From positions 10,025 through 44,675 of the forward strand of contig JAFLUL010000007.1 of NCBI GenBank assembly GCA_022508845.1: DNA of 34,651 nt, written 5' to 3'. Shown here one piece after another: positions 11,562 to 34,651 of the stretch. Origin of the DNA: Oscillospiraceae bacterium (GTDB taxonomy: Bacteria; Bacillota; Clostridia; Oscillospirales; Acutalibacteraceae). Numbering within the stretch: the stretch's first letter is position 1; each line of letters starts with the position of its first letter. A program made the position numbers and the translations under genes. Under the pieces are notes generated by a model. That model did no database searches and had not been told where the DNA came from. It worked only from the letters and a program-made list of their open reading frames with translations.

Positions 11562-13475
11562 ATGCGAAATTTCTATCTTGTTCAGGCGGGCTGTCTTTAC
11601 GGCAACACATATTATTTACCTTACGCTGTCGGTATGCTGGCGGCTTTTGCGCTTGATGATGAAATTTTAAAACAGGAGTTCTCTCTGGGAAGGATCATTT
11701 ATTCTTTAGAAGATATCGATACCGCTATCGCGTCTATGGAGGAACCCTCCCTGGTGGGTTTTTCAAATTCAATTTGGAACTACGAATATAATCTTGAATT
11801 TGCGAAAAAGCTTAAAATGAAGTATCCCGATTGCGTTATCGAATTCGGCGGTCATCATGTTCCGCCGGACAATTCCTTTCTCAATGACTACGATTTTATA
11901 GACGTGTTGATCCACGGTAAGGGCGAAGAAGCTTTTCGCGATGTGCTTCTGGCTGTTTCGGGACGGATAGAATATTCCGATATACCTAATATCTCTTACC
12001 GCGATCCAAACGGAAATCCGCATAAAACGCAAACTCAGGCTATCCGCATATGCGATTATCCGTCCCCGTATCTTACAGGAGTTTTCGATCAGATAATCAG
12101 CGAGGGCGGATATCCTTTTTCCTGTGTGCTGGAAACGAACCGCGGTTGTCCGTATAATTGCAGCTATTGCGACTGGGGAGAGCTCAATTCGCAAGTGCGG
12201 ATGTTTTCTCTGGAGCGGGTATTTGCCGAGCTTGAATGGATGGCTGCCAATAAAATGGAATTTGTTTATCTGGTGGATGCGAATTTCGGTATGTTTGCGC
12301 GCGATGAACAGATAGCGCAAAAGCTGGTGGAACTGAAAGAAACGGCGGGATATCCGAATAGGCTGCAGGTTTCATATGCAAAGAATGAGCCGGATCGGGT
12401 GTTTCGCATCAATAAACTGCTTGCTGATCACGGCATCGGCAAAGGCGCCACACTCGCGCTGCAGAGCTTATCTCCCGAGGTTCTGAAAAATGTGGGACGT
12501 GCGAATATATCCAAGGAAGAATATGTTCGCAGGATCGCGCAGTTTCGAGGCGCCGGAATTTCTACATATACTGAGCTGATTATCGGTCTTCCCGGAGAAA
12601 CGCTTCAGAGCTTTGAGGAGGGGTTATGCGAGATCCTCGAGCTTGGACAACACTCTTCTGTTACTGCCTATCACTGTGAGCTGCTGCCCGGTTCCCGTAT
12701 GAGCACAAAGGAATATATGGAGCAATACGGCATTAAAACGGTTTGCACAACTCTGGATCAGTTCCATTGCAACGATATGAGAAATGTGCTTTCGGGATAT
12801 TCCAACATTGTTGTGGGAACAAACACCATGTCCCCCGATGAATGGATTGAAGCAAATTTCTTTGCGGGCGGGCTTCAGGGGCTGCACCATTTTGGACTTA
12901 CGCAATGCGCAGCCATGTATGTTCGCAAAGAACTGAATATTTCATACCACGATTTCTATACGGCTCTGCTCCGGTTTTTAACTGATGAAAGCAGCGTTTT
13001 CAGACCGCTTTTTCGCAATATTCGCAGGGTCCTCTATGATTTTGTGTATAACGGCGGTCCGCTTACCGTCATCGACGGCAGGTTTGGCAGCATAACCTGG
13101 CCGCTTGAGGAGGAAGTTTTTCTTGCATGCCTTTATGACCGTGAGCTTTTTTATAAAGAGATAGAAATTTTTCTTCGCAGGTATATTTACGATGCCGCTC
13201 TGCTTTCAGATCTCCTCTGTTATCAGCGCAGTGTTATCCTCCATCCCGATAATAACAGCGAGGAAATTATGCTGCATTTTGCGTGGAGAGACTATTTTAA
13301 CGCGATTATGGAAAACACCTATATACCTCTGCAAAAAAGAGATGTGATGTATCGATTTCAATCGCCTTTTAACGTTGAATCTTGGCCTGAATATGCAAAG
13401 CAGATCGTTTGGTACGGAAGAAGAAACAGCAGAATGCTCTATTCAAGCTCCCCGAATACGATTACGGAAGTGTAA
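11562..13475 (+). CDS. B12-binding-fold radical SAM protein (COG1032-like), paralog 1
   Basis: 637 aa; N-terminal Rossmann-like part with SNSIWNYEYN...FGGHHVPP; [4Fe-4S] motif ETNRGCPYNCSYCDWG; ELIIGLPGET; C-terminal EYAKQIVWYGRR. Confidence 0.9.
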   Translation: MRNFYLVQAGCLYGNTYYLPYAVGMLAAFALDDEILKQEFSLGRIIYSLEDIDTAIASMEEPSLVGFSNSIWNYEYNLEFAKKLKMKYPDCVIEFGGHHVPPDNSFLNDYDFIDVLIHGKGEEAFRDVLLAVSGRIEYSDIPNISYRDPNGNPHKTQTQAIRICDYPSPYLTGVFDQIISEGGYPFSCVLETNRGCPYNCSYCDWGELNSQVRMFSLERVFAELEWMAANKMEFVYLVDANFGMFARDEQIAQKLVELKETAGYPNRLQVSYAKNEPDRVFRINKLLADHGIGKGATLALQSLSPEVLKNVGRANISKEEYVRRIAQFRGAGISTYTELIIGLPGETLQSFEEGLCEILELGQHSSVTAYHCELLPGSRMSTKEYMEQYGIKTVCTTLDQFHCNDMRNVLSGYSNIVVGTNTMSPDEWIEANFFAGGLQGLHHFGLTQCAAMYVRKELNISYHDFYTALLRFLTDESSVFRPLFRNIRRVLYDFVYNGGPLTVIDGRFGSITWPLEEEVFLACLYDRELFYKEIEIFLRRYIYDAALLSDLLCYQRSVILHPDNNSEEIMLHFAWRDYFNAIMENTYIPLQKRDVMYRFQSPFNVESWPEYAKQIVWYGRRNSRMLYSSSPNTITEV

Positions 13476-13484
13476 AATAACGAT

Positions 13485-15386
13485 ATGAAACGAATCTATA
13501 TGGCTCAGCCGAATTCAAAATACGGAAATTCCGTATATTTCCCCTATGCTGCAGGATCTTTGATCGCCTATGCGTTTGCGAACACTGCGGTACGGGACAA
13601 TTATATTTTTGGCAGCTTTTTTTATAAAAAAGACTCAATTGATTCAGTGATCGCATCTGTGGAGGAGCCGTTTGTTTTCGGTTTTTCGTGCTATGTGTGG
13701 AATTATGAGTATAATAAAGCTCTGGCCGAGGCTGTGAAGAAAAAATGGCCGTCGTGTATCACCGTGTTCGGCGGACATCAGGTGTACGAAGGCAGCGATA
13801 TAATTAAAAACGGCAATGCGGATATCGTTATGTTCGGCGAAGGGGAAGAGAGCTTTAAGAGAATACTTCTTGCACTGGCGGGGCTTGATGAAATCGGCGA
13901 AATTCCGAATATTATGTATCGCAAGGACGGTATATCTGTTTTTACTCCCGAAGAAACAGTGTGCATTCCCCATCGGGTCTCTCCTTATTTAAACGGCTGG
14001 TTTGATGAAATGGTTCAAACCGAAAAGGAAGTTGTTTTTTCCGCAATCATTGAAACCAACCGGGGATGTCCGAATAAATGCGCATTTTGCGATTGGGGCA
14101 ATGTTAAGGCGCGGGTCCGTTTGTTTGACGAAGCGATGGTAAAAGCCGAGATCGACTGGATGGCGGAGCATAGAATTGAATACGTATATGCCGCTGACGC
14201 CAACTTCGGTTTGTTTGGGCGGGATGAAGGATATGTGGATTATCTGATCCAAAGGCACGATGAAACCGGTTATCCGCAAAAGTTTCAGGCAACCTACTCA
14301 AAAAACAATCCTGATACTGTTTTTTTGCTTAATAAAAAGCTGAATGACGCCGGTATGAGCAAAGGAGCCACGCTATCGTTCCAAAGCCTCAGCGAAGAAG
14401 TGCTTACCAATATTTACCGAAAAAATATGCCGCTTGAACACTTTAAGCGCCTGATGCAGCTTTATAATGAAAACGGGATCGCGGCTTACTCCGAACTCAT
14501 TCTCGGTTTGCCGGGCGAAACTTACGAATCGTTTCGCAGAGGGTTGGAGCTGCTGCTCCAAAACGGTCAGCATATGTCAATCAATATTTTCAGCTGTGAA
14601 CTGTTGACTAACTCCATTATGAACGATCCCGCTTATATTGAAAAATATCAGATCAAAACCGCCCGCATAGAACAGCATCAATACCATATTGTGCCATACA
14701 ATGTGGATATTCAGGAGTATTCAAATATAGTTGTTTCAACATCATCTATGCCGGAAAACCGCTGGATCGACGCAAACATCCTCGGCGTTTTTGTTCGGGC
14801 ATTTCATAATCTGGGGCTTTTGCAATGTTCGGCAATTTATCTGTTTTATGAAAAAGGCGTTGCATATATGGATTTTTACGAGAAATTGATCGCCTATTCC
14901 CGGCAGAATCCTCAGAGCGTGTGCGGCAGGGTCTATTCCTGGTTAAAAGAAAAATATTCCGAAGTTGTGCGGGGGGGCGGTTCGCTTACCTGGCATGAGC
15001 CTGCATTCGGTGAGCTTACGTGGCCGTTGGAAGAAGCGGCTTATTTAAAAGTTATGAAGGAGCTGCTCCTTTACAGATCTGAAATATATGAATTTATTCG
15101 CTGCTTTTTTGACGATGCGGAATTGCTTGAGGACTTAATGAAATATCAGGATTCCGTTGTGAAAACGCCTGCTTCGAAAGCAAGGCCGATCCAACTGAAA
15201 TATGACTGGTACGCATATTTTTCTTCTGTTTATGAAACAGATTATTCTGAGTTAAAAAAGTGTGACAATACTTTGATTATAGATCCGGGCGAAATTTCTG
15301 CCGATTTGTCGGAATTTGCCGTTAAAACGATATGGTTTGGGCGCAGGGGCAGTAAAAATATTATTACAGATATTCATTATGCTTAA
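13485..15386 (+). CDS. B12-binding-fold radical SAM protein, paralog 2
   Basis: 633 aa; CYVWNYEYN, FGGHQV, ETNRGCPNKCAFCDWG, ELILGLPGET, EFAVKTIWFGRRGSKN. Confidence 0.9.
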   Translation: MKRIYMAQPNSKYGNSVYFPYAAGSLIAYAFANTAVRDNYIFGSFFYKKDSIDSVIASVEEPFVFGFSCYVWNYEYNKALAEAVKKKWPSCITVFGGHQVYEGSDIIKNGNADIVMFGEGEESFKRILLALAGLDEIGEIPNIMYRKDGISVFTPEETVCIPHRVSPYLNGWFDEMVQTEKEVVFSAIIETNRGCPNKCAFCDWGNVKARVRLFDEAMVKAEIDWMAEHRIEYVYAADANFGLFGRDEGYVDYLIQRHDETGYPQKFQATYSKNNPDTVFLLNKKLNDAGMSKGATLSFQSLSEEVLTNIYRKNMPLEHFKRLMQLYNENGIAAYSELILGLPGETYESFRRGLELLLQNGQHMSINIFSCELLTNSIMNDPAYIEKYQIKTARIEQHQYHIVPYNVDIQEYSNIVVSTSSMPENRWIDANILGVFVRAFHNLGLLQCSAIYLFYEKGVAYMDFYEKLIAYSRQNPQSVCGRVYSWLKEKYSEVVRGGGSLTWHEPAFGELTWPLEEAAYLKVMKELLLYRSEIYEFIRCFFDDAELLEDLMKYQDSVVKTPASKARPIQLKYDWYAYFSSVYETDYSELKKCDNTLIIDPGEISADLSEFAVKTIWFGRRGSKNIITDIHYA

Positions 15387-15420
15387 ATTATTGCTCCGTA
15401 TGGAGAGATGAGGAAACCGT

Positions 15421-16146
15421 ATGCAGGATTTTAATGGCTTAACAGTAGTAATATTGGCGTCGAATGAACGAGAGCTGCTGCGCCGTACGATCCGCTTGGT
15501 GCTTGATTATGTTCAGACTGAGGATCTGGCGGAAATAATCGTATTTCTCAAGTCAGCCAACTGTCCCGCGGCGGATGAACTGAAATTGATACGTGCCGGC
15601 ATATCGGTTAATATTCCGATACGGGAGTATGTTCAGCAAGAAAAAAAATTGCCTGAAGCATTGATTGAAATTCCGCCGCTGATCAAAAGCTCGCATTTTC
15701 TGATTATGTTTTCAGATCTTGCCACTGACGCGGCGTCCATTCCGTTGATGGTGGAAGAAGCCAAGCGGTTTCCCGAAGCTGTTGTTTGTGCTTCAAAATG
15801 GCATAAAGATTCCGAAATCCATGATTACGGTTTTCTGCGAATGCTGTGTACAAGGTTTATGAATACTGCTGCCGCATTGATACTTAACTCAGACGGAAAA
15901 GATTTATTTTCTATTTTTCAGATCTACCCTCTGGAGATGGTCCTGCAATTGGACTTAAGTGATTCAAAATCCTTTGTTTTTGATTACACTTTAATGCCGA
16001 TCGCAATGGGAATAAAATATATTGAGGTTCCCACTCGATTTTTCAATCGAACGGAAGAAAAGTCAAATTATAATTTATGGGCTATGCTGAAAACAGGTTT
16101 TGCTTTTTTGAGGACTGCCGTAAGGCTTCGTATACGATACAGATGA
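15421..16146 (+). CDS. Small GT2-like glycosyltransferase with atypical DxD region
   Basis: 241 aa; starts LTVVILASNERELLRRTIRLVLDYV; FSDLATDAASIP in the DxD position; VPTRFFNRTEEKSNYNLW tail typical of DPM1-like GT2; RBS ATGAGGA. Confidence 0.7.
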   Translation: MQDFNGLTVVILASNERELLRRTIRLVLDYVQTEDLAEIIVFLKSANCPAADELKLIRAGISVNIPIREYVQQEKKLPEALIEIPPLIKSSHFLIMFSDLATDAASIPLMVEEAKRFPEAVVCASKWHKDSEIHDYGFLRMLCTRFMNTAAALILNSDGKDLFSIFQIYPLEMVLQLDLSDSKSFVFDYTLMPIAMGIKYIEVPTRFFNRTEEKSNYNLWAMLKTGFAFLRTAVRLRIRYR

Positions 16147-16212
16147 TCGGGGCTCAGGTTTTTTTCTCAGATGAAAAAACCGTGCGATATTTTAACAGAA
16201 CGGAGAATGAGA

Positions 16213-18132
16213 ATGAAAAACATATATTTGATCCAGCCAAATAACGTTATTTCCGGAAAAGTATATTTTCCTTATGCTGTTGGCGCAATTGCTTCATATG
16301 CATGGCAGTTCGATGAAATTAAAAGGGAATATCGGCTTTGTGATTTTATATATAAAAAAGATCCCGTTGAAGATGTATGCGCAACGTTTAAGGAGCCTTT
16401 TTTTGTTGGTTTTTCTTGTTATATGTGGAACATAGATTATAATCTTGATCTTGCGAAGCGTATAAAGCAGAAATGGCCTGAATGCATCATTGCCTTCGGC
16501 GGTCAGCAGGTTCCGGATGATACCGGGCTTTTGGAGCAGTATGAGTTTATTGATATTCTGATGCATGGCGAGGGCGAACAAACATTTTATAATCTTCTTA
16601 TGTGTTTTTCTTCGGATAACGATCTCAGCAGACTGAGCAATATTTCATATCGAAAAGACGGAACGCCAACGCATTTACCCCGGAAAATTTATAGGGATGT
16701 ATCATCTTATCCATCCCCGTATTCCACAGGGCTTTTTGACTGTATTCTTGCCGACGGAAGACGGCAAGGGCTGGATTTTGACGCGGTGTTGGAAACAAAC
16801 CGCGGCTGTCCTTACAGCTGTATTTACTGCTACTGGGCAGGAACTGAAAACAATTTCAGAATATTTCCTGTTGAGCGGGTTATGGCGGATATCGCATGGT
16901 TTGCAGAAAATAAAATATCGTTTGTGATTTGCGCCGATTCCAATTTCGGTATTTTGGATCGGGATAACGATATTGCAGATTATATCGTTCATTGCAAAAA
17001 AACTTTCGGATATCCGCAAAAGTTTGAAACAGCCGCTGCAAAGAACAAAGACGATATTGTTTTTGATATCCACAAAAAGCTGAACGATGCGGATATGTGC
17101 TGCGGTATCAGCGTTGCGGTGCAAAGCTTTTCTCCCACCGTGCTGGAGATAATAGGGAGAAAGAATCTTTCTCTCGATAATTATGCTCAACAGCTTGAAA
17201 AGTATAGGAATGAAGAAATGTCAACCTATACGGACTTTATTTTGGCGCTTCCCGGAGAAACCTATCAGAGCTTCTGCGAGGGGCTGTTTCGGGCGTTGGA
17301 GGCCGGACAGCATGATTCTATCAATATCCACCCGTGCGAAGTGTTGCCTAATACTATCCTGTATTCGGCTGAGCTCAGAGAAAAATATCAGATCAGAACA
17401 GTGCGCGGGCTGTATCAGGACCATACAAAATACGATTCCGACAGCAGCACCAATTCCTCACATGCAGAGTTAATCGTTTCAACTTCCACCTTGAACGAAC
17501 AGGAATGGTGCCGGGCGCTGCGTCTGGGAACCTGTGTGCAGAGTATACATTCGTTCGGATTGTTAAAATTTATCGCTATCTATCTGCGTAAAGCGCAGGG
17601 CGTATCGTATTATGATTTTTATATGAACCTTTACAAATGGATCGAATCGGAGAGCGGATTTTTGAAAGCAGTTTGTGACGATGTGTTTGAAAATCTTGAC
17701 CGTTTTGTTTCAGGGAAAGGCAGTCTTTGTTATTATAATCCCACCTTTTCCGATTCATATTTGTATTTCAGAGAAGGACTTTTCCTTTGCTGCGCGGAGA
17801 AGTTGGATCGGTTCTATGATGACGTTAAGGCGTATATCTCTCAGTATTTTTCAGATGATGAATTATATGCAGATCTTTTGAAGTATCAAACTGCGAAGGT
17901 TTTGCGCATCGGCGATCCGGCGTTGGTTTTGCATTTGGAATACGATTGGCAGGAGTATTTCAGCGATATTTTTGATTCCGCATATCTGACTCCGATCAAA
18001 AGAAAAACCGTGCTTGTTGCGGAAAAAAGCGATGTTGATAACTGGAGCGATTATACTTATCAGAAGATCTGGTTCGGTAAACGAGAAAATAAAATGCTCC
18101 GCAGATTCAAATATGCACCGGATAATCCGTAA
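16213..18132 (+). CDS. B12-binding-fold radical SAM protein, paralog 3
   Basis: ORF 16171-18132 trimmed to ATG 16213 (MKNIYLIQPN, matching paralogs; RBS CGGAG). CYMWNIDYN, FGGQQVP, ETNRGCPYSCIYCYW, LPGETYQSF, IWFGKRENK. Confidence 0.9.
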   Translation: MKNIYLIQPNNVISGKVYFPYAVGAIASYAWQFDEIKREYRLCDFIYKKDPVEDVCATFKEPFFVGFSCYMWNIDYNLDLAKRIKQKWPECIIAFGGQQVPDDTGLLEQYEFIDILMHGEGEQTFYNLLMCFSSDNDLSRLSNISYRKDGTPTHLPRKIYRDVSSYPSPYSTGLFDCILADGRRQGLDFDAVLETNRGCPYSCIYCYWAGTENNFRIFPVERVMADIAWFAENKISFVICADSNFGILDRDNDIADYIVHCKKTFGYPQKFETAAAKNKDDIVFDIHKKLNDADMCCGISVAVQSFSPTVLEIIGRKNLSLDNYAQQLEKYRNEEMSTYTDFILALPGETYQSFCEGLFRALEAGQHDSINIHPCEVLPNTILYSAELREKYQIRTVRGLYQDHTKYDSDSSTNSSHAELIVSTSTLNEQEWCRALRLGTCVQSIHSFGLLKFIAIYLRKAQGVSYYDFYMNLYKWIESESGFLKAVCDDVFENLDRFVSGKGSLCYYNPTFSDSYLYFREGLFLCCAEKLDRFYDDVKAYISQYFSDDELYADLLKYQTAKVLRIGDPALVLHLEYDWQEYFSDIFDSAYLTPIKRKTVLVAEKSDVDNWSDYTYQKIWFGKRENKMLRRFKYAPDNP

Positions 18133-18162: not shown

Positions 18163-19986
18163 ATGAAAAAAACAGAAGCTGTGCAAACAGAAAAAACTTC
18201 AAATTTGCGATTGGATTTTGCCGCGGTGTGTCTCGGCGCGGGTCTTTTTGTTTACTTTCTCTTAACGGCCGACAGGGGAATTGCTATTTCCGACGAGGCA
18301 TTTTACTATACGGTTCCTCAGCGTCTGCTGCAGGGAGATCTGCTGCTGGTACACGAATGGGGTGTTCAGCAGCTTCCGTTTTTATTCCTTGTTATACCCT
18401 ATTATGTTTATGTGTCTGTTGTGGGAACTACCGAGGGGATTTTATTGTTTTCGCGGTATTTCTTTTTGGTTATTGATATTCTTTTCTATGCGTATATGTA
18501 TAAAAAGCTGCGGCATTTTAAGCTCGCGGGGCTTGTCTGCGCATTTCTTTTCTGTGCGATCCTGCCGCCGTCCGGACTGTCGCTGACCTATTATTCAATT
18601 GCGCCGATGGCTATGATGACGGTCTGCCTGACCCTGTTTACGGGAAGCGAGAAAAAGCGCCTGCCTTCGCTTACGTTCAGCGGCGTTATTCTTGCCATGG
18701 CAATTCTTGCGGAACCGCTGCTGATTTTTGTTTATATCCTGTTCGCCGCAGCAACTGTCATCAGAACGCTTATGAAATGTGATACCGGCTCAGCCTGGCT
18801 TAATCTGAAATGGCTTTTTAGTATTACAGCCGGCAGTTTCGCCGTTTTCTGTGCGTTTATGATTTATCTGGCTGTGTCGGGCAGTCTTGCTTTGCTGCCT
18901 CAAACGATCGGTTATTTGCTGTCGTCGAAAGGATATACGCCATATGATATTATTGAGCCGGCGAGGTTAAAATTCGCGCTGGGACTTTTTGGGTACGGTT
19001 TTCTTCCCTGCGGCGTTTTTTTGAGTGTTGCTGCGTTTTGGTATTCGCGGCAGAGAAAGAAAAACAAAAAAATCAAGATCATTATTTTTATTATTTCGTG
19101 TTTGATGTTCGCCGCTTGTTATGTTCATGCGGCTGTGCTGACGCTGTCAAATACCGCATACAGGAATTTTGATTTTCTTGTCAATAACGGCGTGCCTGTT
19201 TTGCTGTTTTCTCCCGTTTGGTATTTTTTGCTGAACAAGAGAGATGCCCGTTTGTTTCCGGTATGGCTGATCGGATTCTTCAGCTCGCTGCTGATGGATA
19301 TTTCATCCGATGTGATTCTCGGAAGCTGCGGCGGTATCGCTCAGGTAACAGGACTTATTTCCTTCGCATCGCTGTGCCAAGAGCTTCGGAGCGATCTTGA
19401 TGAAGTAAAACACGACCGTAAGGCAATACGCTTTAACAAATTGTTTTCAAAAATACTTCTGCCAAGTGTGATCGTGTGTGTTTTAAGCTTTTCGCTCTGG
19501 AATGCCGGATTTATTTACGCGGAGGAGTATTGGGATCTTGTGGAAACGATCTATGGCGCCGGTGAAGGAGAGCCTCTTTCGGCAGAGCTCGAAAAAGGTC
19601 CGTGTAAAGGACTTAAAACAACAGAGCGTATCAGCGGAATTTATAACGCATTGCTGCAGGATCTGGACACTATAAGCGCGGCTTATACGGGTGAGCCGGT
19701 GTATATTGACGGATTATGCCCTTATGGTTATCTTTATCTTGATCTGCCTTACGGTGTTGAAACTGCTTTCTTTGTTCCGTATGACAGAAGGACGGGAGAG
19801 TACCTGACGGTTTTCCCTGAGAAACGGGCAAAGATCATTTATTTTCCTATGTATGATTTTGATGAATTCTGTTTGCGCACGGATATGACGAAAGATGATA
19901 TTCCAAAGGTCATGTCGTTCATATTCGGAGAATCCCGCTATGAGCTTACAGAAACTGCAGCCGGTTTTATTGTTGAATTGGTGTGA
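18163..19986 (+). CDS. GT-C/ArnT-like polytopic membrane glycosyltransferase candidate
   Basis: 607 aa; ISDEAFYYTVPQRLLQGDLLLVHEW; EPLSAELEKGPCKGLKTTERI...YLYLDLPYG shared with the 4929-6779 paralog. Confidence 0.75.
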   Translation: MKKTEAVQTEKTSNLRLDFAAVCLGAGLFVYFLLTADRGIAISDEAFYYTVPQRLLQGDLLLVHEWGVQQLPFLFLVIPYYVYVSVVGTTEGILLFSRYFFLVIDILFYAYMYKKLRHFKLAGLVCAFLFCAILPPSGLSLTYYSIAPMAMMTVCLTLFTGSEKKRLPSLTFSGVILAMAILAEPLLIFVYILFAAATVIRTLMKCDTGSAWLNLKWLFSITAGSFAVFCAFMIYLAVSGSLALLPQTIGYLLSSKGYTPYDIIEPARLKFALGLFGYGFLPCGVFLSVAAFWYSRQRKKNKKIKIIIFIISCLMFAACYVHAAVLTLSNTAYRNFDFLVNNGVPVLLFSPVWYFLLNKRDARLFPVWLIGFFSSLLMDISSDVILGSCGGIAQVTGLISFASLCQELRSDLDEVKHDRKAIRFNKLFSKILLPSVIVCVLSFSLWNAGFIYAEEYWDLVETIYGAGEGEPLSAELEKGPCKGLKTTERISGIYNALLQDLDTISAAYTGEPVYIDGLCPYGYLYLDLPYGVETAFFVPYDRRTGEYLTVFPEKRAKIIYFPMYDFDEFCLRTDMTKDDIPKVMSFIFGESRYELTETAAGFIVELV

Positions 19987-20119: not shown

Positions 20120-20188
20120 GAATAATGTATGAATAGGGGGGTTTTTACCCTTAAGCCAATACTGAATATTACTGTAGGAGGATTCTTT

Positions 20189-25162: not shown

Positions 25163-25182
25163 GATAAAAGGATAAGTTGGTT

Positions 25183-26118
25183 ATGTCAAAAATTCTTGTC
25201 ACCGGAGGCGCGGGTTATATCGGCAGCGTTCTTATTCCAATGCTGCTTCGCGCAGGGCACGAGGTTACGGCGCTTGATTCTTTTTTATACCGCCAATGCT
25301 CGCTTATTGATTGCTGCAATTATAAGTCGTTTAATATTGTAAACGGAGATTGCCGCAGCGAGGAAACTCTTAAAAAGCTTCTCCCCGGGAATGAGTTTAT
25401 TATTCCTCTCGCGGCAATAGTTGGTTTTCCCGCCTGCGAAAAGGATGAAACCGCGGCGGTTTCGGTTAATCAAACCGCGGTGGAAACGCTTATTTCTCTT
25501 CGGGAGCGGGATCAGAAAATTATTTTTCCCTGCACAAACAGCGGCTACGGTCTCGGGCAGGGGGAGGAATTCTGTACGGAAACTTCACCCATATCGCCCA
25601 TCTCGCTCTACGGAAAAACCAAAATGGCCGCCGAAAGGGCTGTTTTGGAGGCGGGAAACAGCGTAACGTTCCGTTTTGCAACTCTTTTCGGAGCCTCGCC
25701 GCGGATGCGGACCGATCTGCTTGTTAATGATTTTGTTTATCGGGCGGTTTTTGATCGCTCTCTGATAGTTTTTGAGGGGAATTTCAAACGGAATTATCTC
25801 CACGTTCGTGATGCTGCCCGTGCATTTATGTTTGCTATGGATAATTTTGATAAGATGAACGGCCAAACCTATAACTGCGGGCTGAGCAGCGCAAATTTAT
25901 CAAAGCTTCAGCTCTGCGAAAAGATAAAAGACGCTTTGCCCTCATTTCAGTTTTTTGAGGCGCCGGTCGGCTCTGACCCCGATAAGCGCGATTATATTGT
26001 TTCAAACGCCAAAATTGAAGCTCTCGGATATAAGCCTGAATTTTCTCTTGAGGACGGAATAATGGAGCTTACTAAAGTTTACTGCGTAATAAAAAATTCA
26101 TTCTACGGAAATGTGTAG
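25183..26118 (+). CDS. NAD(P)-dependent SDR epimerase/dehydratase (nucleotide-sugar)
   Basis: MSKILVTGGAGYIGS nucleotide-binding motif, TNSGYG and YGKTK (YxxxK) catalytic motifs; ATG 25183 preferred over TTG 25177. Confidence 0.85.
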   Translation: MSKILVTGGAGYIGSVLIPMLLRAGHEVTALDSFLYRQCSLIDCCNYKSFNIVNGDCRSEETLKKLLPGNEFIIPLAAIVGFPACEKDETAAVSVNQTAVETLISLRERDQKIIFPCTNSGYGLGQGEEFCTETSPISPISLYGKTKMAAERAVLEAGNSVTFRFATLFGASPRMRTDLLVNDFVYRAVFDRSLIVFEGNFKRNYLHVRDAARAFMFAMDNFDKMNGQTYNCGLSSANLSKLQLCEKIKDALPSFQFFEAPVGSDPDKRDYIVSNAKIEALGYKPEFSLEDGIMELTKVYCVIKNSFYGNV

Positions 26119-26123
26119 CAGGT

Positions 26124-26489
26124 ATGGAGCTTATTAAAATTTTAACCCCCGATTTTTTATATCCCGATGAAAGAGGTCTGCTTGTTCAGCTCTGCGGCGG
26201 CGGATATGAGCAGGTAAACGCCGTTTTTACCAAAAAAGGCTCTATTAGGGGAAATTTTCACTATCATAAAAACACCAAAGAGGCATATTTTGTTCTTTCC
26301 GGGAAAATTTTACTCACGGCAGAAAAAAACGGAGTAACCGAAAAAAGAGTATTTGAAACCGGAGAAATGTTTTTAATAGAGGAATTTGTTAAACACAGCC
26401 TCGATTTTATTGAGGACACCTATTTGGTTGTGCTTTATAGTAAATGCGTTGAAAACGCCGATGGAACCAAGGATATCCACACCTGCTGA
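26124..26489 (+). CDS. Cupin-fold sugar-modifying protein (WxcM/FdtA/CapF-C-terminal-like)
   Basis: 121 aa; GSIRGNFHYHKNTKEAYFVLSGKILLTAE cupin signature; directly downstream of the SDR. Confidence 0.7.
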   Translation: MELIKILTPDFLYPDERGLLVQLCGGGYEQVNAVFTKKGSIRGNFHYHKNTKEAYFVLSGKILLTAEKNGVTEKRVFETGEMFLIEEFVKHSLDFIEDTYLVVLYSKCVENADGTKDIHTC

Positions 26490-26512: not shown

Positions 26513-28432
26513 ATGAACAAAAAAAACATTTATCTTGCTCAGCCTTCATATATGAGTTCAAATTCCGCGCCATTCCCCGCTGCGATCGGCGCTTTGTCCG
26601 CTTATGCGTGGAGATATGAGGATATAAAAGAGTTTTTTTTGCTGAAGGATATAATTTTTCTCCGCGAAAAGCAGAGCGAAATAATAAACCGGCTTGACAG
26701 TCCCTTCTTGTTCGGTTTTTCCTCATATATGTGGAACATCGAATATAATAAAGCTCTCGCCGAGAAGGTGAAAGCCAGGTTTCCGAACTGCGTTATTCTC
26801 TTTGGCGGACCTCAGGTGCCCGAGGGCGAGGAGCTTCTTGAAAGCTGTCCGTTTATTGATGTGCTGATCCATAGCGAGGGAGAAATTCCCTTTTTGGAGC
26901 TTCTGCGCGCGCTTCGGGATAAAACGCCGCTTGATAAAATTAAAAATATATCCTTCCGTGACGGAGAAAAGCTTGTTTATACGGGCTTTGAACGCTGCTG
27001 CAGCACCGATTTTCCGTCGCCCGTAACATCGGGATTTTTTGACCGACTCATAAGCGAAAACCCCGGGCTCAGGTTTACTCCGCTTATTGAATCCGGACGA
27101 GGCTGTCCAAACCGCTGCGCCTATTGCAGCTGGGGAAATAAGGATACGGGGATGCGGCTGTTTCCTCTTGAACGTGTTTTCGGCGATCTTGAATGGATAA
27201 GCCGGCATAAGATGGAATATATCGGCTTTGCCGATTCAAATTTCGGTATGTTTAAGCGCGATGAAGAGATAACCGAAAAGATTCTCGAGCTGAACAAAAA
27301 AAACGGTTATCCGAAAAAGTTTCAGGTGTCCTATGCCAAGGATTCGGGCGAGCGGGTGTATAACATAACCGAAAAGCTGAACGAAGCCGGTCTTTGCAAG
27401 GGAGTAACGCTGTCGTTTCAAACGATGTCGCCCGAGGCTCAAAAAAATATAGGCCGCTCAAATATGGACATAGAATACTATAAATTCTTGCTCCGAAAAT
27501 ATGCCGATGCAGGAATTTCAACATATTCCGAGCTTATTTTGGGGCTTCCCGGCGAGACGGTTGAAAGTTTTATAAGCGGTATAGAACAGCTCCTTGAATA
27601 CGGACAGCACGCGCAGATGATGATCCATTTGTGCGAGTGGCTTCCGCTGTCGCCGATGGGAGAAAAAGAGTATCTTGAAAAGTATAAAATAAAATATATA
27701 AAAATCCCGCTCAATCAGCCGCACGTTGTTTTGAATGCCGATGATGAAATCCCGGAGTTTTCAAGAGTTGTTGTTTCAAGCTATTCTATGAGCGCGGAGG
27801 AATGGAAGCAGGTAACTCTGTTCGGCGCGAGCGTTTTGTGTTTTCATCATCTGGGGCTTATGCAGCTCCCGGCGCTCTATCTTTTTTTTGAAAAGGGAAT
27901 AAAGTATGTTGATTTTTATTCCCGTCTGCTTTCAAGTCTTCTCTCAAAGGAAAACAGCGTTTTTAATCGCATAAAAAAACAGCTAGATGATATGCTTGAA
28001 AACGGCGCCGGCGCAGTTGTTTTTGACGAACGCTTCGGAAAAGTGAGCTGGACGTTTGAGGAATACGCCTTTTTATCAGCCGTTTTTGAAAAAGAAGCTT
28101 TTTATAAAGAGATGGACGCCTTTTTATCGTTCTATATCTCCGACGACGCTTTCAGACGCGAATTGCTCAGCTATCAGGCGTTTACCGTTAAAGAGATAAA
28201 TCGTCCTTATGCCGAGTTTAAGGGGAATTATAACTGGAGAGAGTATTTTTCGTCTCTTTTGAAAAATAAGAGAGCCGAGCTTATAAAAAGGGAAGTTAAT
28301 TATTTTGTAAACGACGAATTTTGCTGCGCTTCGTGGAGCGAATATGCCGAGAAGGTAGTGTGGTACGGGCGCAGAGGAGGAAAAAATATATATTCCTCCG
28401 AGATAAAGGAGCGTTTTGTTGATGGACAGTGA
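26513..28432 (+). CDS. B12-binding-fold radical SAM protein, paralog 4
   Basis: 639 aa; SYMWNIEYN, FGGPQVPEG, ESGRGCPNRCAYCSWG, ELILGLPGET, EYAEKVVWYGRRGGKN. Confidence 0.9.
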   Translation: MNKKNIYLAQPSYMSSNSAPFPAAIGALSAYAWRYEDIKEFFLLKDIIFLREKQSEIINRLDSPFLFGFSSYMWNIEYNKALAEKVKARFPNCVILFGGPQVPEGEELLESCPFIDVLIHSEGEIPFLELLRALRDKTPLDKIKNISFRDGEKLVYTGFERCCSTDFPSPVTSGFFDRLISENPGLRFTPLIESGRGCPNRCAYCSWGNKDTGMRLFPLERVFGDLEWISRHKMEYIGFADSNFGMFKRDEEITEKILELNKKNGYPKKFQVSYAKDSGERVYNITEKLNEAGLCKGVTLSFQTMSPEAQKNIGRSNMDIEYYKFLLRKYADAGISTYSELILGLPGETVESFISGIEQLLEYGQHAQMMIHLCEWLPLSPMGEKEYLEKYKIKYIKIPLNQPHVVLNADDEIPEFSRVVVSSYSMSAEEWKQVTLFGASVLCFHHLGLMQLPALYLFFEKGIKYVDFYSRLLSSLLSKENSVFNRIKKQLDDMLENGAGAVVFDERFGKVSWTFEEYAFLSAVFEKEAFYKEMDAFLSFYISDDAFRRELLSYQAFTVKEINRPYAEFKGNYNWREYFSSLLKNKRAELIKREVNYFVNDEFCCASWSEYAEKVVWYGRRGGKNIYSSEIKERFVDGQ

Positions 28433-29147
28433 TTACAGTCTTTCGGTCGTTATCCCTGCGGTGGATGAAACATATTCGCTTGAAAACACCTTTAATAAGC
28501 TGGACAAAAATAAAGCCGCAAGCGAATATATCTTTATTCTTTCAAAAAGCTGTACCGAGGGATGCCTGAAAACCGTTCAAAAGCTCTGCGAAAGAGACGA
28601 CTGCCGCTGGATATATCAGAGCGGAAAAGGCTTTGGAAACGCCATAAGGGATTCGTTTTTTGAGGTAAAGGGCTCTCATATCGTTCTTTGGAGCGCGGAT
28701 GAAGCAACCGACGCTTCATCCTTTCCCGAAATGCTGAAACTTTCAAAGGAGAACCCCGAAAAAATAATTAAAATCAGCCGTTTTTTGCGAAAGGACGGCT
28801 TTGAGGGCTACGGAAGGATAAAAAAAGCCGTAAATTTTATTTCCCAGCGCGCCTTTGCGCTGTTATACCGTTCCGATTTAACTGAATTTACAAATCCAAC
28901 TCAGATAGCCCCTGTTAGAGTTTACAGAATGATAAAATGGGAGAGAAACGATTTTGCCTTTCTTCCCGAAATGACATTTAAGCCGATAAAGCTGGGGATC
29001 GATTTTATTGAGGTTCCAACCAAAAACGTTGTCCGCACTGAGGGAAAATCTCATAATAATTTCATAGGATGGCTTAAATATTATTATATGATACTCAAAA
29101 TTTTTTTGACGGATAAAAAAGATTTAATTTCGGAGGTGCAGGAGTGA
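28422..29147 (+). CDS. Small GT2-like glycosyltransferase with atypical DxD region
   Basis: LSVVIPAVDETYSLENTFNKL; WSADEATDASSFP in the DxD position; IEVPTKNVVRTEGKSHNNF tail; ATG 28422 overlaps the end of the upstream rSAM. Confidence 0.75.
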   Translation: MDSDYSLSVVIPAVDETYSLENTFNKLDKNKAASEYIFILSKSCTEGCLKTVQKLCERDDCRWIYQSGKGFGNAIRDSFFEVKGSHIVLWSADEATDASSFPEMLKLSKENPEKIIKISRFLRKDGFEGYGRIKKAVNFISQRAFALLYRSDLTEFTNPTQIAPVRVYRMIKWERNDFAFLPEMTFKPIKLGIDFIEVPTKNVVRTEGKSHNNFIGWLKYYYMILKIFLTDKKDLISEVQE

Positions 29148-31069
29148 AAAACGTATACTTTGTGTTGGCAAACAAGTCCTACGGAAAAGCCCTGTACTTT
29201 CCCTATGCGGTTGGATGCTTGGCGGCCTATGCCTTTGCCGACAGTGAAATAAAAGAGAGCTTTAACCTCGGCGGGTTTATTTACAGGCGCGATGAAATTT
29301 CGCAGGCGCTTGAAAAGATCAAGGAGCCGAGCGTTGTTGCGTTTTCCTGCTATATGTGGACAATAGAATATAATAAGCTGCTTGCAAAGGCCGTTAAGGA
29401 AAAATATCCAAACTGCATTATCCAGTTCGGGGGGCACGAAATTTCCCCTCAGAGCGAGCTTGAAAATTATCCCTATGTTGATATTTTCACCTTCGGAGAA
29501 GGGGAGGAGCCGTTTAAAAAGCTGCTCCTTGCCGTTAAAAAAGGCAACAGTCTTTTGAGCGTTCCGAACAGCGCGGTTCGCACTCCGAACGGACTTATAT
29601 TTACCGAAAAAGAAGTTTATACGGAGCTTAGCTACCCTTCGCCCTACACTTCGGGCATATTTGACGGTATTATAGCCGAAAACCCCGGTGTTGAATTTGA
29701 CGTTACAATAGAAACAAACCGCGGCTGCCCGTATATGTGCGCTTATTGCGACTGGTGCTATACCCCCAAGGTGCGCGAATTTCCTATGGAAAAAATAAGG
29801 GCGGAAATAGACTGGTGCGCCGAGCATAAGGTTGAATATATTTATAACGCCGACGCGAATTTCGGAATATTAAAACGCGATTATGAAATTGCAGAGTATG
29901 CCGTTCAGGTTAATAAACGAACCGGATATCCGCAGATTTTCAACGCCTGCTTTGCAAAAAACAGCAACGACAATGTTTTTGCCATTTCAAAGCTTCTTTA
30001 CGACAATAAGATTAACAAGGCGATAACTCTCGCCTATCAAACCGTTTGCAGCGACGCGCTTAAAAACGTCAACCGCACAAACTTTACTATGGATGCGTTT
30101 GCCGATCTCGTTTTGCGCTATAACGAATATGAAATTCCAACCTATACCGAACTTATTCTGGGGCTTCCCGGAGAAACCTATAACAGCTTCTGCGAGGGAA
30201 TATGCAAGCTTATTGAGGCGGGACAGCATAACGCGATGACCGTTTACGGCTGTCAGGTTTTTCAAAACGCCCTTATGGGAACAAAAGAGTACCGCGAAAA
30301 ATTCGGGATCGAAACAGCCCGCGTTAAGCAGGGAAGCGTCCATTCATCTCCTCTTCCCCCCGGAGAAATTCAGGAATATACCGACCTTGTTATCGCAACA
30401 AAGGATATGCCGTTTGACGATATGATACGTTCGCTGATGTTTTGCACCTGCGTTCAGGGATTTCATCATATCGGACTGCTCAAATGCTTTGCCATTTATC
30501 TCAGGCAGGAAAAGAACGTTTCTTATATTGATTTTTACAGGGCCCTGCTCCAATATATTTACAGCGCGAAGGGAACGTTTATAAACCGCCTGTTTCTCCG
30601 TTTTGAGGCTCAGTGCAGAGATTTATCAAACGGCGAATGGACATATATAAGCGATGAATTCGGAGATATGGGCTGGTACTACGATGAAGGGCTGTTTATG
30701 GAGGTTGCCAAACACTACGATGAATTCTGGCAGGAAATACCGCCGTTTCTCTCTTCCTTCGGAATTGAAGAGGAAATGCTCTCAGAGCTCAGCAGGTATC
30801 AGAAGTTTATTATAAGACTCATATGTCAGGAGCAGGTAAAAGACACCTTCAAATATGATTTTACCCCCTATTTTCTCTCAGCCCTTGAGCAGAGGCCTGT
30901 TCCGCTTAAAAAACGGGAAAACACCATAAGCATAACCATCCCGAATCCGGTGTATAACTGGCATGATTACAGCCGTCAGGTTATGCTCTTTGCAAAAAAG
31001 AAGAGCGCAACTCTTCTGATTAAGGATAAACAGAATATTATTGATATAAGCTATAAGGACGAGAAATGA
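29144..31069 (+). CDS. B12-binding-fold radical SAM protein, paralog 5
   Basis: 641 aa; GTG start overlapping the upstream stop (GTGA); CYMWTIEYN, FGGHEISP, ETNRGCPYMCAYCDW, ELILGLPGET. Confidence 0.9.
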   Translation: MKNVYFVLANKSYGKALYFPYAVGCLAAYAFADSEIKESFNLGGFIYRRDEISQALEKIKEPSVVAFSCYMWTIEYNKLLAKAVKEKYPNCIIQFGGHEISPQSELENYPYVDIFTFGEGEEPFKKLLLAVKKGNSLLSVPNSAVRTPNGLIFTEKEVYTELSYPSPYTSGIFDGIIAENPGVEFDVTIETNRGCPYMCAYCDWCYTPKVREFPMEKIRAEIDWCAEHKVEYIYNADANFGILKRDYEIAEYAVQVNKRTGYPQIFNACFAKNSNDNVFAISKLLYDNKINKAITLAYQTVCSDALKNVNRTNFTMDAFADLVLRYNEYEIPTYTELILGLPGETYNSFCEGICKLIEAGQHNAMTVYGCQVFQNALMGTKEYREKFGIETARVKQGSVHSSPLPPGEIQEYTDLVIATKDMPFDDMIRSLMFCTCVQGFHHIGLLKCFAIYLRQEKNVSYIDFYRALLQYIYSAKGTFINRLFLRFEAQCRDLSNGEWTYISDEFGDMGWYYDEGLFMEVAKHYDEFWQEIPPFLSSFGIEEEMLSELSRYQKFIIRLICQEQVKDTFKYDFTPYFLSALEQRPVPLKKRENTISITIPNPVYNWHDYSRQVMLFAKKKSATLLIKDKQNIIDISYKDEK

Positions 31070-33018
31070 AAAACGTTTATTTTGTGCAGGTAAACGATTT
31101 CTACGGGAGCGGGAGAAAAAGCACGTATATCCCTTATGCAGTTGGATGTATACAGGCCTTCTGCTTGCAGGACGAGGTTATTTCTTCCCGCTATAATTTC
31201 GGAAGAATAGTTTATTGCAGAGATAATATAGAAGATATCGTAAACCGTTTCAGCGACCCGTTTATGGTGCTTTTTTCCTGCTCCGTTTGGAACACGGAGT
31301 TTAATAAAGCTTTGGCTCAGGGGGTTAAAAAGGCGTTTCCTTCTTGCCTCATAACCTTCGGCGGGCATCACGTTTCGTCCGATCTCTCATTTTTATCGGA
31401 AAATCCGTTTGTTGATTTCGTTGTTCATAATGCCGGCGAGGAACCTACTGCCGCTCTGCTTCGGGCTTTGGCTCTCGGAGAAAACCTTGAAGAAATATCA
31501 AATCTCTCATTCAGAAGAAAAAACGGTTCTGCGTTTACAACCCCTATTCTCCCCCAAACGGGAAGCGACTATCCTTCGCCCTATTTAGCGGGGATATTTG
31601 ACGATATCCTTAAAGACGATATTGATTTTTCAATTATTCTTGAAACAAACAGGGGCTGTCCGAACGCCTGCGCTTTTTGCGATTGGGGGCTGCTTAAGAG
31701 CAAGGTCAGGCTTTTTCCTTTGGAGAGAGTTTTTGCGGAGCTGGACTGGGCGGTAAATCACAAAATTGAGTATATTTACTGCGCCGATGCAAATTTCTGT
31801 CTTTTCGGCCGAGATGAGCAGATAATTGATTATATTATAGCCTGCAATAAACAATACGGCTATCCTAAGATGTTTCATCTGAATTTCACCAAAAACCGCG
31901 CCGAATTTGTTTTTGACGTAAGCTCCAAGCTTATAAAAAACGGGCTTTCAAAGGCGCAAACCATAGCGTTTCAGAGTATGAATCCGGAGGTTCTTTCAAA
32001 CATAGGCCGAAAAAATATGTCTCTTGAAAACTTCCGCTCTCTTATGCGCCGCTTTAGCGAAAATAATATCCCAACCTACTGCGAGCTTATTTTGGGGCTT
32101 CCGGGAGAGACCTATGAGAGCTTTTCAAAGGGACTTTGCTCGCTTATTGAAAACGGTCAGCATTTTGCCGTTTATGTTTATCCCTGCGAGATGTTTCCCA
32201 ATTCCGAGATTTCCGAAAAGGGCTACCGCGAAAAGTTTAAGATAGGCAGCACCCGGGTTCCGTTTTTGCTTATGCACACCGGCAGCGAAAAATCTCCCGG
32301 AGCGGTAACGGAATATGTTGATATAGTAACTTCAACGTATTCCTTAAATAAGTTTGACTGGGCAAGAACATTTCTCTTTGCCTGCTTTGTTCAGGGGCTT
32401 CATAATATGGGGCTTTTAAGAAGCGTTGCGATATATTGCAGATATGCGCTGAGACTGAGCTTTAACGAATTTTACGAAGGACTTATTGATCACGCCAAAA
32501 ACTCTTCCGGATCCTTTCTCTCGCATCTGTATGAATATATTTTTTCCCTGTGTATCGGCGTTGCCGAGGGAAAAAATTCGTTTGTTGCCCCGTCGGAAGA
32601 AACAAACGGTATTCTCTGGGGCTTTGAAGAGCTGGTTTATATTGAGGTATTCAAAAGCCTTGCTCGGTTTTATGAAGAGGTTTATTTTTTCCTGCTTAAA
32701 AAATTCGGGAGAACCGATGAGCTTAACGCCCTTTTCCGTTATCAGTTTGATATAATAAAAAAAATCGGTCTGAAAGATATTGTTATTCAGTCGGATTATG
32801 ATTTTTATTCTTATTTTAACTGCGTTTATCTGAACTCTCCTCAGCCTCTGAAAAAGGAGAAGATCAGTTTGAGCGTGAGCGATCCCGACCCCGTTTATTC
32901 TTTGGCGGACTACGCGCGCAAGGCGGTGTGGTACGGAAGAAACCGCCGTGAAACGGACTATACGGGCGGCCATTATAGGGTTGAATATAAAAATTTTGCT
33001 TCCTCTTTTGGAGAATAA
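31066..33018 (+). CDS. B12-binding-fold radical SAM protein, paralog 6
   Basis: 650 aa; ATGA overlap with the upstream gene; CSVWNTEFN, FGGHHVSS, ETNRGCPNACAFCDWG, ELILGLPGET, DYARKAVWYGRN. Confidence 0.9.
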   Translation: MKNVYFVQVNDFYGSGRKSTYIPYAVGCIQAFCLQDEVISSRYNFGRIVYCRDNIEDIVNRFSDPFMVLFSCSVWNTEFNKALAQGVKKAFPSCLITFGGHHVSSDLSFLSENPFVDFVVHNAGEEPTAALLRALALGENLEEISNLSFRRKNGSAFTTPILPQTGSDYPSPYLAGIFDDILKDDIDFSIILETNRGCPNACAFCDWGLLKSKVRLFPLERVFAELDWAVNHKIEYIYCADANFCLFGRDEQIIDYIIACNKQYGYPKMFHLNFTKNRAEFVFDVSSKLIKNGLSKAQTIAFQSMNPEVLSNIGRKNMSLENFRSLMRRFSENNIPTYCELILGLPGETYESFSKGLCSLIENGQHFAVYVYPCEMFPNSEISEKGYREKFKIGSTRVPFLLMHTGSEKSPGAVTEYVDIVTSTYSLNKFDWARTFLFACFVQGLHNMGLLRSVAIYCRYALRLSFNEFYEGLIDHAKNSSGSFLSHLYEYIFSLCIGVAEGKNSFVAPSEETNGILWGFEELVYIEVFKSLARFYEEVYFFLLKKFGRTDELNALFRYQFDIIKKIGLKDIVIQSDYDFYSYFNCVYLNSPQPLKKEKISLSVSDPDPVYSLADYARKAVWYGRNRRETDYTGGHYRVEYKNFASSFGE

Positions 33019-33020
33019 TG

Positions 33021-34651
33021 ATGAAAAACGTTTATTTTGTACAGGTGGGCTTTGGGTTTGACGGCTCTGTTTATCTGCCCTATGCGGTAGGAACCATAAT
33101 AGCCAACTGCAAACGCTATTCCGAAATAACAGAAGAATATAACTTCCCGGATATAATCTTTTGCCGAGAAAATCTTGCCGATGCTCTCGGAAAAATCCGC
33201 GAACCCTTTATGGTGGCGTTTTCGTGCAGCGTTTGGAATATGGAATATAATAAGGCTCTGTCTTCGCTCATAAAGGAAAAATATCCGGACTGCCTTATTG
33301 CGTTCGGAGGCCACAGCGTTAAAAATAACGGCGAGCTTTTGGAGGAATTGCCGTGGGTGGATATGCTGAATTTCGGGGAGGGCGAGGAGGTTTTTGCCCG
33401 CCTTCTCATCGCGCTTAAAAACGGCGATATTAGTAAAGCCGGGTCGATAGCCTACCGCGAAAACGGAAAAACGGTTTTAACCCCCCTTTCCCCGGCATGC
33501 GATTTAAGCGTTTTGCCTTCGCCTTATTTAACCGGCGTTTTTGATAAGCTCATAAAGGAAAATCCCGGCAGAGAATTTTTATCCGTGCTTGAAACGAACC
33601 GCGGCTGCCCTTATTCCTGCGCTTATTGCGACTGGGTAACGGATAAAAAAATGAGATTTTTCCCCCTGGAAAAGGTAAAGGCTGAAATAAACTGGCTCTC
33701 TGAGCATAAAATAGCCTACTGCTTCTGCGGCGACTCAAACTTCGGTATGTTTGACAGGGATATTGAAATAGCCGAATATTTTGTTGAAGCAAAAAGAAAG
33801 ACCGGCTATCCCGAGGTGTTTCGCCCCTGTTATGAAAAAAACAGCGCGGACAGAGTTTTTAAGATATGCAGCATATTAAACCGCGAGGGGATGGACAAGG
33901 GCGCAACCCTTGCCTATCAGACCCTCTCTCCTGAGGCGCTTAAAAATATAGGCAGAAAAAATCTCACTATGGAGCATTTTTCCTCCCTTGTTAAACGCTA
34001 TAACGAAGCGGGTATCCCAGCTTATTCAGAGCTTATTCTCGGTCTCCCGGGAGAAACAAAAGAGAGCTTTTGCAGGGGTATCTGCCGTCTGCTTGAGAGC
34101 GGACAGCATAATTCCTTAAACGTTTACCACTGCGAAATGCTTCCGAACGCCGAGATGGCTTCTCCCGATTATATAAAAAAACACGGCATAAACGTTATCA
34201 AGGTCGGCTTTAATCATATCCACAGCGCTCCCGAGCAGAATGAAGAGGTTCAGGAATATTCATACCTCGTCCGCTCAACAAACTCTCTCAGCGCTGACGA
34301 CTGGGTTTATGCAAATCTGTTTTCCGTGTGCGTTCAGTGTTTCCACTCTCTCGGGATTTTGAGGTTTTTTGCTATCTATCTCTATTTCGAGCAAAAATTA
34401 AGTTATTATGATTTTTATACTTCGCTGCTTGAATATATTCTCGGCGGCAGCGGCGCGCTTACGGAGCTCTGGAAACAGTTTAAGAAAAAATATGAAGCCT
34501 CTCTTGCAGGCGACTGGAACTACCACAACGAAAAATTCGGAAACGTTACCTGGTTTTTTGAAGAGGGAGCTTTTTTGGAGATAATAAACGATTATGAGGG
34601 GATTTCAGCCTCTCTTGAACCCTTTTTGAAGAGCTGTAATATTCCATATGA
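33021..34651 (+). CDS. B12-binding-fold radical SAM protein, paralog 7 (3' truncated by window end)
   Basis: My translation from ATG 33018/33021: MKNVYFVQVGFGFDGSVYLPYAVG...CSVWNMEYN...FGGHS...ETNRGCPYSCAYCDW...ELILGLPGET; open to the last base, so it is missing from the supplied ORF track. Confidence 0.85.
   Translation, partial: MKNVYFVQVGFGFDGSVYLPYAVGTIIANCKRYSEITEEYNFPDIIFCRENLADALGKIREPFMVAFSCSVWNMEYNKALSSLIKEKYPDCLIAFGGHSVKNNGELLEELPWVDMLNFGEGEEVFARLLIALKNGDISKAGSIAYRENGKTVLTPLSPACDLSVLPSPYLTGVFDKLIKENPGREFLSVLETNRGCPYSCAYCDWVTDKKMRFFPLEKVKAEINWLSEHKIAYCFCGDSNFGMFDRDIEIAEYFVEAKRKTGYPEVFRPCYEKNSADRVFKICSILNREGMDKGATLAYQTLSPEALKNIGRKNLTMEHFSSLVKRYNEAGIPAYSELILGLPGETKESFCRGICRLLESGQHNSLNVYHCEMLPNAEMASPDYIKKHGINVIKVGFNHIHSAPEQNEEVQEYSYLVRSTNSLSADDWVYANLFSVCVQCFHSLGILRFFAIYLYFEQKLSYYDFYTSLLEYILGGSGALTELWKQFKKKYEASLAGDWNYHNEKFGNVTWFFEEGAFLEIINDYEGISASLEPFLKSCNIPY

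Follow-up and report, generated by a model that had tools for sequence, protein, structure and literature searches.

What are seven related cobalamin (B12)-dependent radical SAM (rSAM) proteins doing side by side in one glycan-type locus of an Oscillospiraceae bacterium (GCA_022508845.1)? They are encoded in the final 34,651 bases of contig C125, hereafter the window, in a genome of 2.36 Mb that is spread over 157 contigs and estimated to be 85% complete. The window was analyzed with Pfam, NCBIfam, Rfam and PDB profile searches, AlphaFold models, Foldseek and trees of the rSAM and family 2 glycosyltransferase (GT2) families, as well as a neighborhood survey in which the open reading frames (ORFs) of 114 loci were clustered, leaving 105 independent loci once duplicate records had been merged. 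Judged from these trees and neighborhoods, the paralogs are old ortholog groups that travel as modules with their own sugar-building and sugar-attaching genes. Because sets of three to four B12 enzymes are co-inherited with such genes, our results suggest that the uncultured gut bacteria carrying them attach methyl groups to carbon atoms of surface sugars to an extent of which we found no description.

An earlier sequence-only reading reported seven plus-strand ORFs of about 640 amino acids (aa), all of which are present, and its assignment of radical SAM and B12-binding domains to them is borne out by hidden Markov model searches. Radical_SAM (PF04055) scores above cut-off in 7/7, while the B12-binding domain (PF02310) is matched in all seven at E 7e-5 to 9e-10 and exceeds the Pfam cut-off in 4/7. 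The paralogs share 35-42% pairwise identity, and similarity by chance is excluded because each of them reaches 860-970 bits with the family profile. The motifs first described for them stand in part. The CxxxCxxC core of RGCPxxCxYC is invariant but its tyrosine varies (CAFC in paralogs 2 and 6), the WNxEYN segment is present but reads WTIEYN in paralog 5, WNIDYN in 3 and WNTEFN in 6, and LGLPGET is present but becomes LALPGET in 3 and IGLPGET in 1. Two further full paralogs bring the genome to at least nine copies, one on C103 in the same ortholog group as paralog 3 and one adjoining a GT2 on the 4.4-kb contig C28; the proteins on C14 and the remaining rSAM contigs of the genome belong to other families.

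When solved structures were searched with a profile built from the nine copies, TokK ranked first, at 463 bits over positions 16-581 of 638, and CysS followed at 286 bits. The AlphaFold model of paralog 1 (mean pLDDT 94.6) superposes on TokK over its whole length, with Foldseek template-modeling (TM) scores of 0.91 for TokK, 0.77 for CysS and about 0.5 for TsrM and OxsB. The C-terminal domain, which closes the substrate channel in this class, is covered both by the TokK profile alignment (to 581/638) and by the fold match, which spans 676 columns. In TokK and CysS a tryptophan (W76 and W75, respectively) takes the lower axial position under the cobalt, and TokK W215 sits between SAM and cobalamin (PMC9692996, PMC12846815). 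W72 aligns with the former pair and W205 with TokK W215 and CysS W206, and both are invariant in 9/9 copies of this genome. Among 273 relatives the three cluster cysteines are invariant in 273/273 and W72 is a tryptophan in every aligned member of eight ortholog groups, while W205, two residues after the last cluster cysteine, is replaced in a few. NF033712 (the KedN5 family) is the best NCBIfam profile for 7/7, although its 227-270 bits fall below the curated cut-off of 700 and it covers only about the first 400 residues. MiaB/RimO methylthiotransferases were rejected as an identity (TIGR00089, 28-60 bits against a cut-off of 251). Overall, it is well supported by the profiles and the predicted structure that the paralogs are class-1 cobalamin-dependent rSAM methylases of the TokK/CysS type, and methylation would follow from that class. 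A cobalamin site is predicted by the TokK-like model and its conserved tryptophan, and the view that methylating B12 enzymes stand in a glycan-type locus has likewise gained support.

The commonest partners of these genes across the 114 loci are a 245-aa GT2 (67 loci), GT-C-like membrane proteins, a short-chain dehydrogenase/reductase (SDR), a GHMP kinase, a cupin and an HddC-GmhB fusion, with the small GT2s being the most constant neighbor (60/105 independent loci). Two modules can be distinguished in the window. Module A consists of an FKP-like fusion, paralogs 1-3 and one GT2, and module B of an SDR resembling heptose C4-dehydrogenase, a cupin, paralogs 4-7 and another GT2. Among the independent loci, FKP occurs in 11/12 with group 1 or 2 and in 0/93 others (Fisher p 5e-14), and with the window left out it is found in 0/67 loci with groups 4-7. 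The small GT2 tree has three clades that correspond to three types of module, each with a support of 1.0; GT2s-A accompanies FKP loci and group 3, GT2s-B accompanies groups 4-7, and the GT2 of C28 accompanies group 8. The order SDR-cupin-4-GT2s-5-6-7 is identical in L102 and L048, which are of the same genus, and in L083, so that rSAM arrays with the same gene order do recur in other genomes; the sequence-only reading had proposed a neighborhood survey to look for such arrays. The module pattern is the same across three separate trees or gene sets. The earlier idea that all copies serve one polymer, taken as one sugar, is probably wrong, as the paralogs are split over two modules with different sugar-nucleotide genes and different GT2 clades; because of these separate ties, at least two sugars are probably involved.

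Local serial duplication, previously offered as the origin of the array, does not fit the tree of 273 rSAM proteins either. Paralogs 4, 5, 6 and 7 fall into four ortholog groups of 34, 35, 33 and 29 sequences (supports of 0.90, 1.0, 1.0 and 0.96), and no group has more than one member in any locus (for paralogs 4, 5 and 6 the sequences come from 34, 35 and 33 loci); for this reason the duplications are old. Recent tandem duplication is ruled out by the pairwise identities, the ortholog groups and the gene order kept in other genomes; an assembly artefact is ruled out by the divergence of the copies and by the same gene order in independently assembled genomes. A mobile origin was also rejected, with phage matches being 21-24% identical and plasmid matches at most about 31%. 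The proposal that the copies are specialized for different substrates or positions is, by comparison, strengthened. In four genomes, G016, G019, G021 and G024, paralogs 5 and 6 form a single protein of 1271-1290 aa (L113:11007-14876, L120:11221-15078, L133:5143-9000, L136:1-3813); these genomes fall into two lineages with different linkers, and because of this fusion it is suggested that the two act on one molecule.

Matches are found in 18/25 other genomes of the genus, the fuller of which hold 3-10 copies, whereas at E < 1e-90 only 1/296 other sampled genomes of the order and 0/298 of the phylum have one; the order and phylum searches scored the four best candidates per genome and give presence rather than copy number. 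The sources named in the records are uncultured Oscillospiraceae and other Clostridia, and the gut of sheep, goat, deer and buffalo accounts for many of them. In a near-complete genome from another genus of the family (G274; L144, L145) there are no arrays but two rSAM copies that lie about 83 kb from each other, each accompanied by a separate small GT2. A second family of B12-rSAM proteins of about 490 aa accompanies the 640-aa arrays, at times in tandem runs of three or four (L080:5950-12069, L085:3278-7736, L150:6030-7514, L146:4171-5655). In the alphaproteobacterium Azospirillum sp. TSA2s, a single TokK-type rSAM (30% identical over 98%) stands in a polysaccharide-type cluster of nucleotide-sugar and glycosyltransferase genes on plasmid p2 (NZ_CP039644.1, L151).

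Paralog 7 is indeed cut by the right-hand edge, where the window stops with its contig. The first 18 bases of contig C113 equal the last 18 of the window and carry the paralog 7 frame on to 635 aa, the added part being 58% identical to the corresponding stretch of the L102 ortholog. The join rests on this overlap, the frame and synteny rather than on reads, and C113 is likely to be the direct continuation of the window. Beyond paralog 7, C113 (L146, 1-10142) encodes a GT-C-like protein, a small membrane protein, an RmlD-like SDR, an HddA-like kinase and a 495-aa B12-rSAM protein, an order also seen in G023 behind its own paralog 7, with an HddC-GmhB gene at 8.9 kb. The suspicion that the array extends to the right is thus not borne out, since the tandem of ~640-aa proteins ends at paralog 7, except that a shorter, separate B12-rSAM follows five genes on.

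With regard to the sugars, the SDR of module B matches PDB 6vo6, which we take to be the Campylobacter jejuni GDP-heptose C4-dehydrogenase Cj1427, over its whole length (351 bits, E 5e-104). This SDR is present in 13/15 congeneric genomes with at least four rSAMs and in 0/11 others (26 genomes; p 2e-5). GmhB is recognized in L060 by TIGR00213 (156.9 bits, above the cut-off of 149.6), and the genome's own C113 gives 138 bits for HddA and 77 bits for HddC. The 121-aa cupin has weak matches to oxalate decarboxylase cupins only and is not closely related to a solved epimerase, so an epimerase or isomerase is a possible role. In C. jejuni, GDP-heptose is modified by Cj1427, Cj1430 and Cj1428 (PMC10680097). 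For module A, the FKP-like fusion matches the kinase domain of FKP in the PDB at E 5e-36. "Heptose-type" and "fucose-type" are used here as labels of likelihood, not proof.

Sugar transfer is approached through the glycosyltransferases. The small GT2 (GT2s) family profile matches the dolichol-phosphate-mannose (DPM) synthase 5mlz along its length (E 1.9e-24 over 5-233 of 244), because of which these enzymes probably load polyprenyl phosphate, and the C-terminal R..G.S motif is kept. The GTCa membrane proteins have no Pfam or PDB sequence match. The leading Foldseek matches of their model are all GT-C enzymes (OST/STT3, ArnT, AftA, PglB; best E 9.8e-6, TM 0.50), and on this predicted fold they are GT-C glycosyltransferases. 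A further GT-C-like cluster, GTCb, has homologs in 44 of the surveyed loci. The 1618-aa secreted repeat protein has homologs in 12 rSAM loci, and that it serves as the glycan acceptor is a guess. As for the cofactor, the genome can use corrinoids, with MetH on C95; on C70 (L142:3550-8892) a sub-threshold cobalamin riboswitch match is followed by secreted DUF4430 genes, a locus that is probably involved in corrinoid scavenging.

The features of the window are collected below. The GT2 that precedes the aminotransferase scores 131.9 bits against NF047588, under the cut-off of 500, and no RNA element in the window reaches the Rfam gathering threshold. To the left, on the same contig (L001:5043-7110), genes for an IspD/TarI-like cytidylyltransferase and a GT2-like protein precede an alanine racemase and may form a further envelope-glycan locus.

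Table 1. Predicted genes of the window (positions count from its first base).
Feature	Position	Strand	Remarks
GT-C-like polytopic membrane protein (cluster GTCb)	858..2180	+	about 10 transmembrane-like segments; no Pfam match
GT-C-fold membrane glycosyltransferase (cluster GTCa)	2796..4736	+	homolog of 18163-19986; no Pfam match
GT-C-fold membrane glycosyltransferase (cluster GTCa), divergent strand	4929..6779	-	
GT2 with C-terminal transmembrane segments, PgfS/ArnC-like polyprenyl-phosphate sugar transferase	6985..7926	+	Pfam GT2; NF047588
DegT-type nucleotide-sugar aminotransferase	7923..9047	+	PF01041, 350 bits
Module A: FKP-like fused sugar pyrophosphorylase-GHMP kinase	9076..11541	+	PF07959 + PF00288
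Module A: B12-rSAM paralog 1	11562..13475	+	637 aa; W72, W205 conserved
Module A: B12-rSAM paralog 2	13485..15386	+	633 aa
Module A: small GT2 (GT2s-A), DPM-synthase-like	15421..16146	+	family profile to DPM synthase 5mlz; groups with FKP loci
Module A: B12-rSAM paralog 3	16213..18132	+	639 aa; upstream ATG at 16171 is a possible start
GT-C-fold membrane glycosyltransferase (cluster GTCa)	18163..19986	+	AlphaFold pLDDT 83.9; GT-C fold matches
Large secreted repeat protein, possible surface glycan carrier	20129..24985	+	1618 aa; one N-terminal hydrophobic segment; no Pfam match
Module B: SDR, GDP-heptose C4-dehydrogenase-like	25177..26118	+	PDB 6vo6, E 5e-104, residues 4-311
Module B: small cupin, possible C3/C5 epimerase or isomerase	26124..26489	+	PF07883; adjoins SDR in many loci
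Module B: B12-rSAM paralog 4	26513..28432	+	639 aa
Module B: small GT2 (GT2s-B), DPM-synthase-like	28416..29147	+	
Module B: B12-rSAM paralog 5	29144..31069	+	641 aa, GTG start
Module B: B12-rSAM paralog 6	31066..33018	+	650 aa
Module B: B12-rSAM paralog 7	33018/33021..34651	+	at least 544 aa, cut at contig end; completed by C113 bases 1-292

We consider it fairly probable that the two linked modules each build one nucleotide sugar, C-methylate it at several positions and load it onto polyprenyl phosphate for the GT-C enzymes. In module A the nucleotide sugar would be made in the cytosol by the FKP-like kinase/pyrophosphorylase, and in module B by a GDP-heptose-type route through the HddA-like kinase, HddC-GmhB, the C4-dehydrogenase-like SDR, the cupin and a C4-reductase-like SDR. 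Three to four TokK-class enzymes per module would then methylate unreactive sugar carbons, probably one position or round each. The ping-pong scheme with two SAM molecules is the known mechanism of the class; in these enzymes, a first SAM would methylate cob(I)alamin, a second would yield the 5'-deoxyadenosyl radical that abstracts hydrogen, and the substrate radical would accept the methyl group from methylcobalamin. The module-specific DPM-synthase-like GT2 would pass the sugar to polyprenyl phosphate, and the GT-C membrane enzymes would attach it, outside the cell, to a glycan or surface protein. More tentatively, and with a little less than even confidence, we propose an envelope-glycan chemistry not described before, in which these uncultured gut Clostridia use the TokK-class set of each module to build heavily C-methylated heptose- and fucose-type sugars, branched or alkyl-extended, and in which a combinatorial code of B12-dependent methylation would diversify their surface. 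GenD1 and GenK are precedents for the C-methylation of sugars by enzymes of the B12-rSAM kind (PMC4340712).

Several points weigh against this proposal. Enzyme class, cofactor-site residues, module membership, the GT2 and GT-C assignments and the heptose-type genes come directly from the computation, but we infer that the substrate is a sugar, as well as the identity of that sugar, the carbons concerned, the nucleotide- or lipid-linked stage and the final acceptor. TokK and CysS, the nearest solved relatives, act on pantetheine-linked substrates and not on sugars. The exact sugars are uncertain because HddA, HddC and FKP score below their curated cut-offs (in L060, HddC 189 against 300 and HddA 132 against 600; the window FKP 243 bits against 721). 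The surveyed loci share descent, so the Fisher p values overstate independence, and many loci combine an rSAM and a GT2 without sugar-nucleotide genes within 10 kb, although contig edges and flank limits may hide these.

Among the alternatives, the one that survives best, although we judge it unlikely, is that the modules produce not a surface polymer but a small molecule, either secreted or linked to a lipid (an antibiotic-like glycoside or glycolipid), with its sugars or aglycone methylated by the rSAM enzymes. The nearest characterized enzymes, TokK, CysS and GenK, do come from antibiotic pathways (PMC4340712), and some plasmid TokK-type matches lie in natural-product contexts, for example beside a nonribosomal peptide synthetase (NRPS) in Streptomyces. 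However, no polyketide synthase, NRPS, carrier protein or scaffold gene was found among the genes of the window, a large secreted protein lies inside the operon, and the GT-C membrane enzymes together with the DPM-type GT2 genes speak for the assembly of an envelope glycan. Cobalamin rSAM enzymes are not all methylases, OxsB and BchE being non-methylating members of the class. It is nonetheless rather improbable that the paralogs epimerize, dehydrate or ring-contract sugars with cobalamin used as in OxsB: the sequence-only reading had allowed for this and profiles of the OxsB and BchE families match weakly, but OxsB aligns far worse than TokK (TM 0.51 against 0.91), and beneath its cobalt it has an Asn-water arrangement in place of the TokK/CysS tryptophan found here (PMC13331322). 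We regard as very improbable a reading in which methylation falls on the polyprenyl carrier or some other lipid and the sugar genes are mere neighbors. A single lipid carrier would leave unexplained why distinct ortholog groups track distinct sugar-nucleotide genes and GT2 clades, even if the most constant neighbor probably uses polyprenyl phosphate and there are weak matches to B12-rSAM enzymes from lipid pathways (HpnR, ladderane type). Least probable of all are maturases of ribosomally synthesized and post-translationally modified peptides (RiPPs) or of the 1618-aa surface protein, for although TIGR03975 (RiPP C-methyltransferases) is among the better weak matches and a large secreted protein is in the operon, all scores (34.7-67.6 bits) lie below its cut-off of 281.85, the rSAM genes abut or overlap their neighbors with no room for precursor peptides, and the surface protein is missing from most loci.

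As a rule, most members of a single uncultured genus have 3-10 diverged TokK-class copies per genome, linked to sugar-specific modules, and we found no account of such a system in the open-licence literature. If the glycans are methylated, a rare and costly radical chemistry would be routine surface diversification in the herbivore gut, and the surface would depend on corrinoid supply. Nature would then also have provided many orthologs and paralogs, among them a two-enzyme fusion, from which the carbon choice of the class could be learned.

TokK-class enzymes are familiar from antibiotic pathways, with one to a few per cluster. TokK itself, the carbapenem C6 methylase (PDB 7kdx/7kdy), and its relative ThnK share with the paralogs whole-length homology, fold, C-terminal domain and CxxxCxxC, and TokK also shares the Trp under the cobalt and the Trp after the last cluster cysteine. 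However, identity to TokK is only ~28% and its substrate is a pantetheinylated beta-lactam in an antibiotic pathway, whereas here up to nine or ten diverged copies lie beside sugar-nucleotide and membrane glycosyltransferase genes. CysS (cystobactamid; PDB 9n1b) has the same domain order and cofactor residues, but the curated cut-off of the KedN5 profile NF033712 is not reached by the paralogs. To our knowledge, C. jejuni decorates its heptoses without B12-rSAM enzymes. Its GDP-heptose pathway (HddA/HddC, Cj1427, Cj1430, Cj1428; PMC10680097) nevertheless shares with module B and C113 the C4-dehydrogenase-like SDR, a cupin, the C4-reductase-like SDR, the HddA-like kinase and HddC-GmhB, although the cupin of module B differs in being only 121 aa long and not closely related to a solved epimerase. 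GenD1 and GenK of the gentamicin pathway C-methylate sugar carbons and are likened to the paralogs by chemistry, not sequence; they act on a finished pseudotrisaccharide antibiotic, with two enzymes per pathway and no envelope glycan (PMC4340712). Set beside these systems, what is new is that whole sets of methylases are inherited as modules along with genes specific to a sugar.

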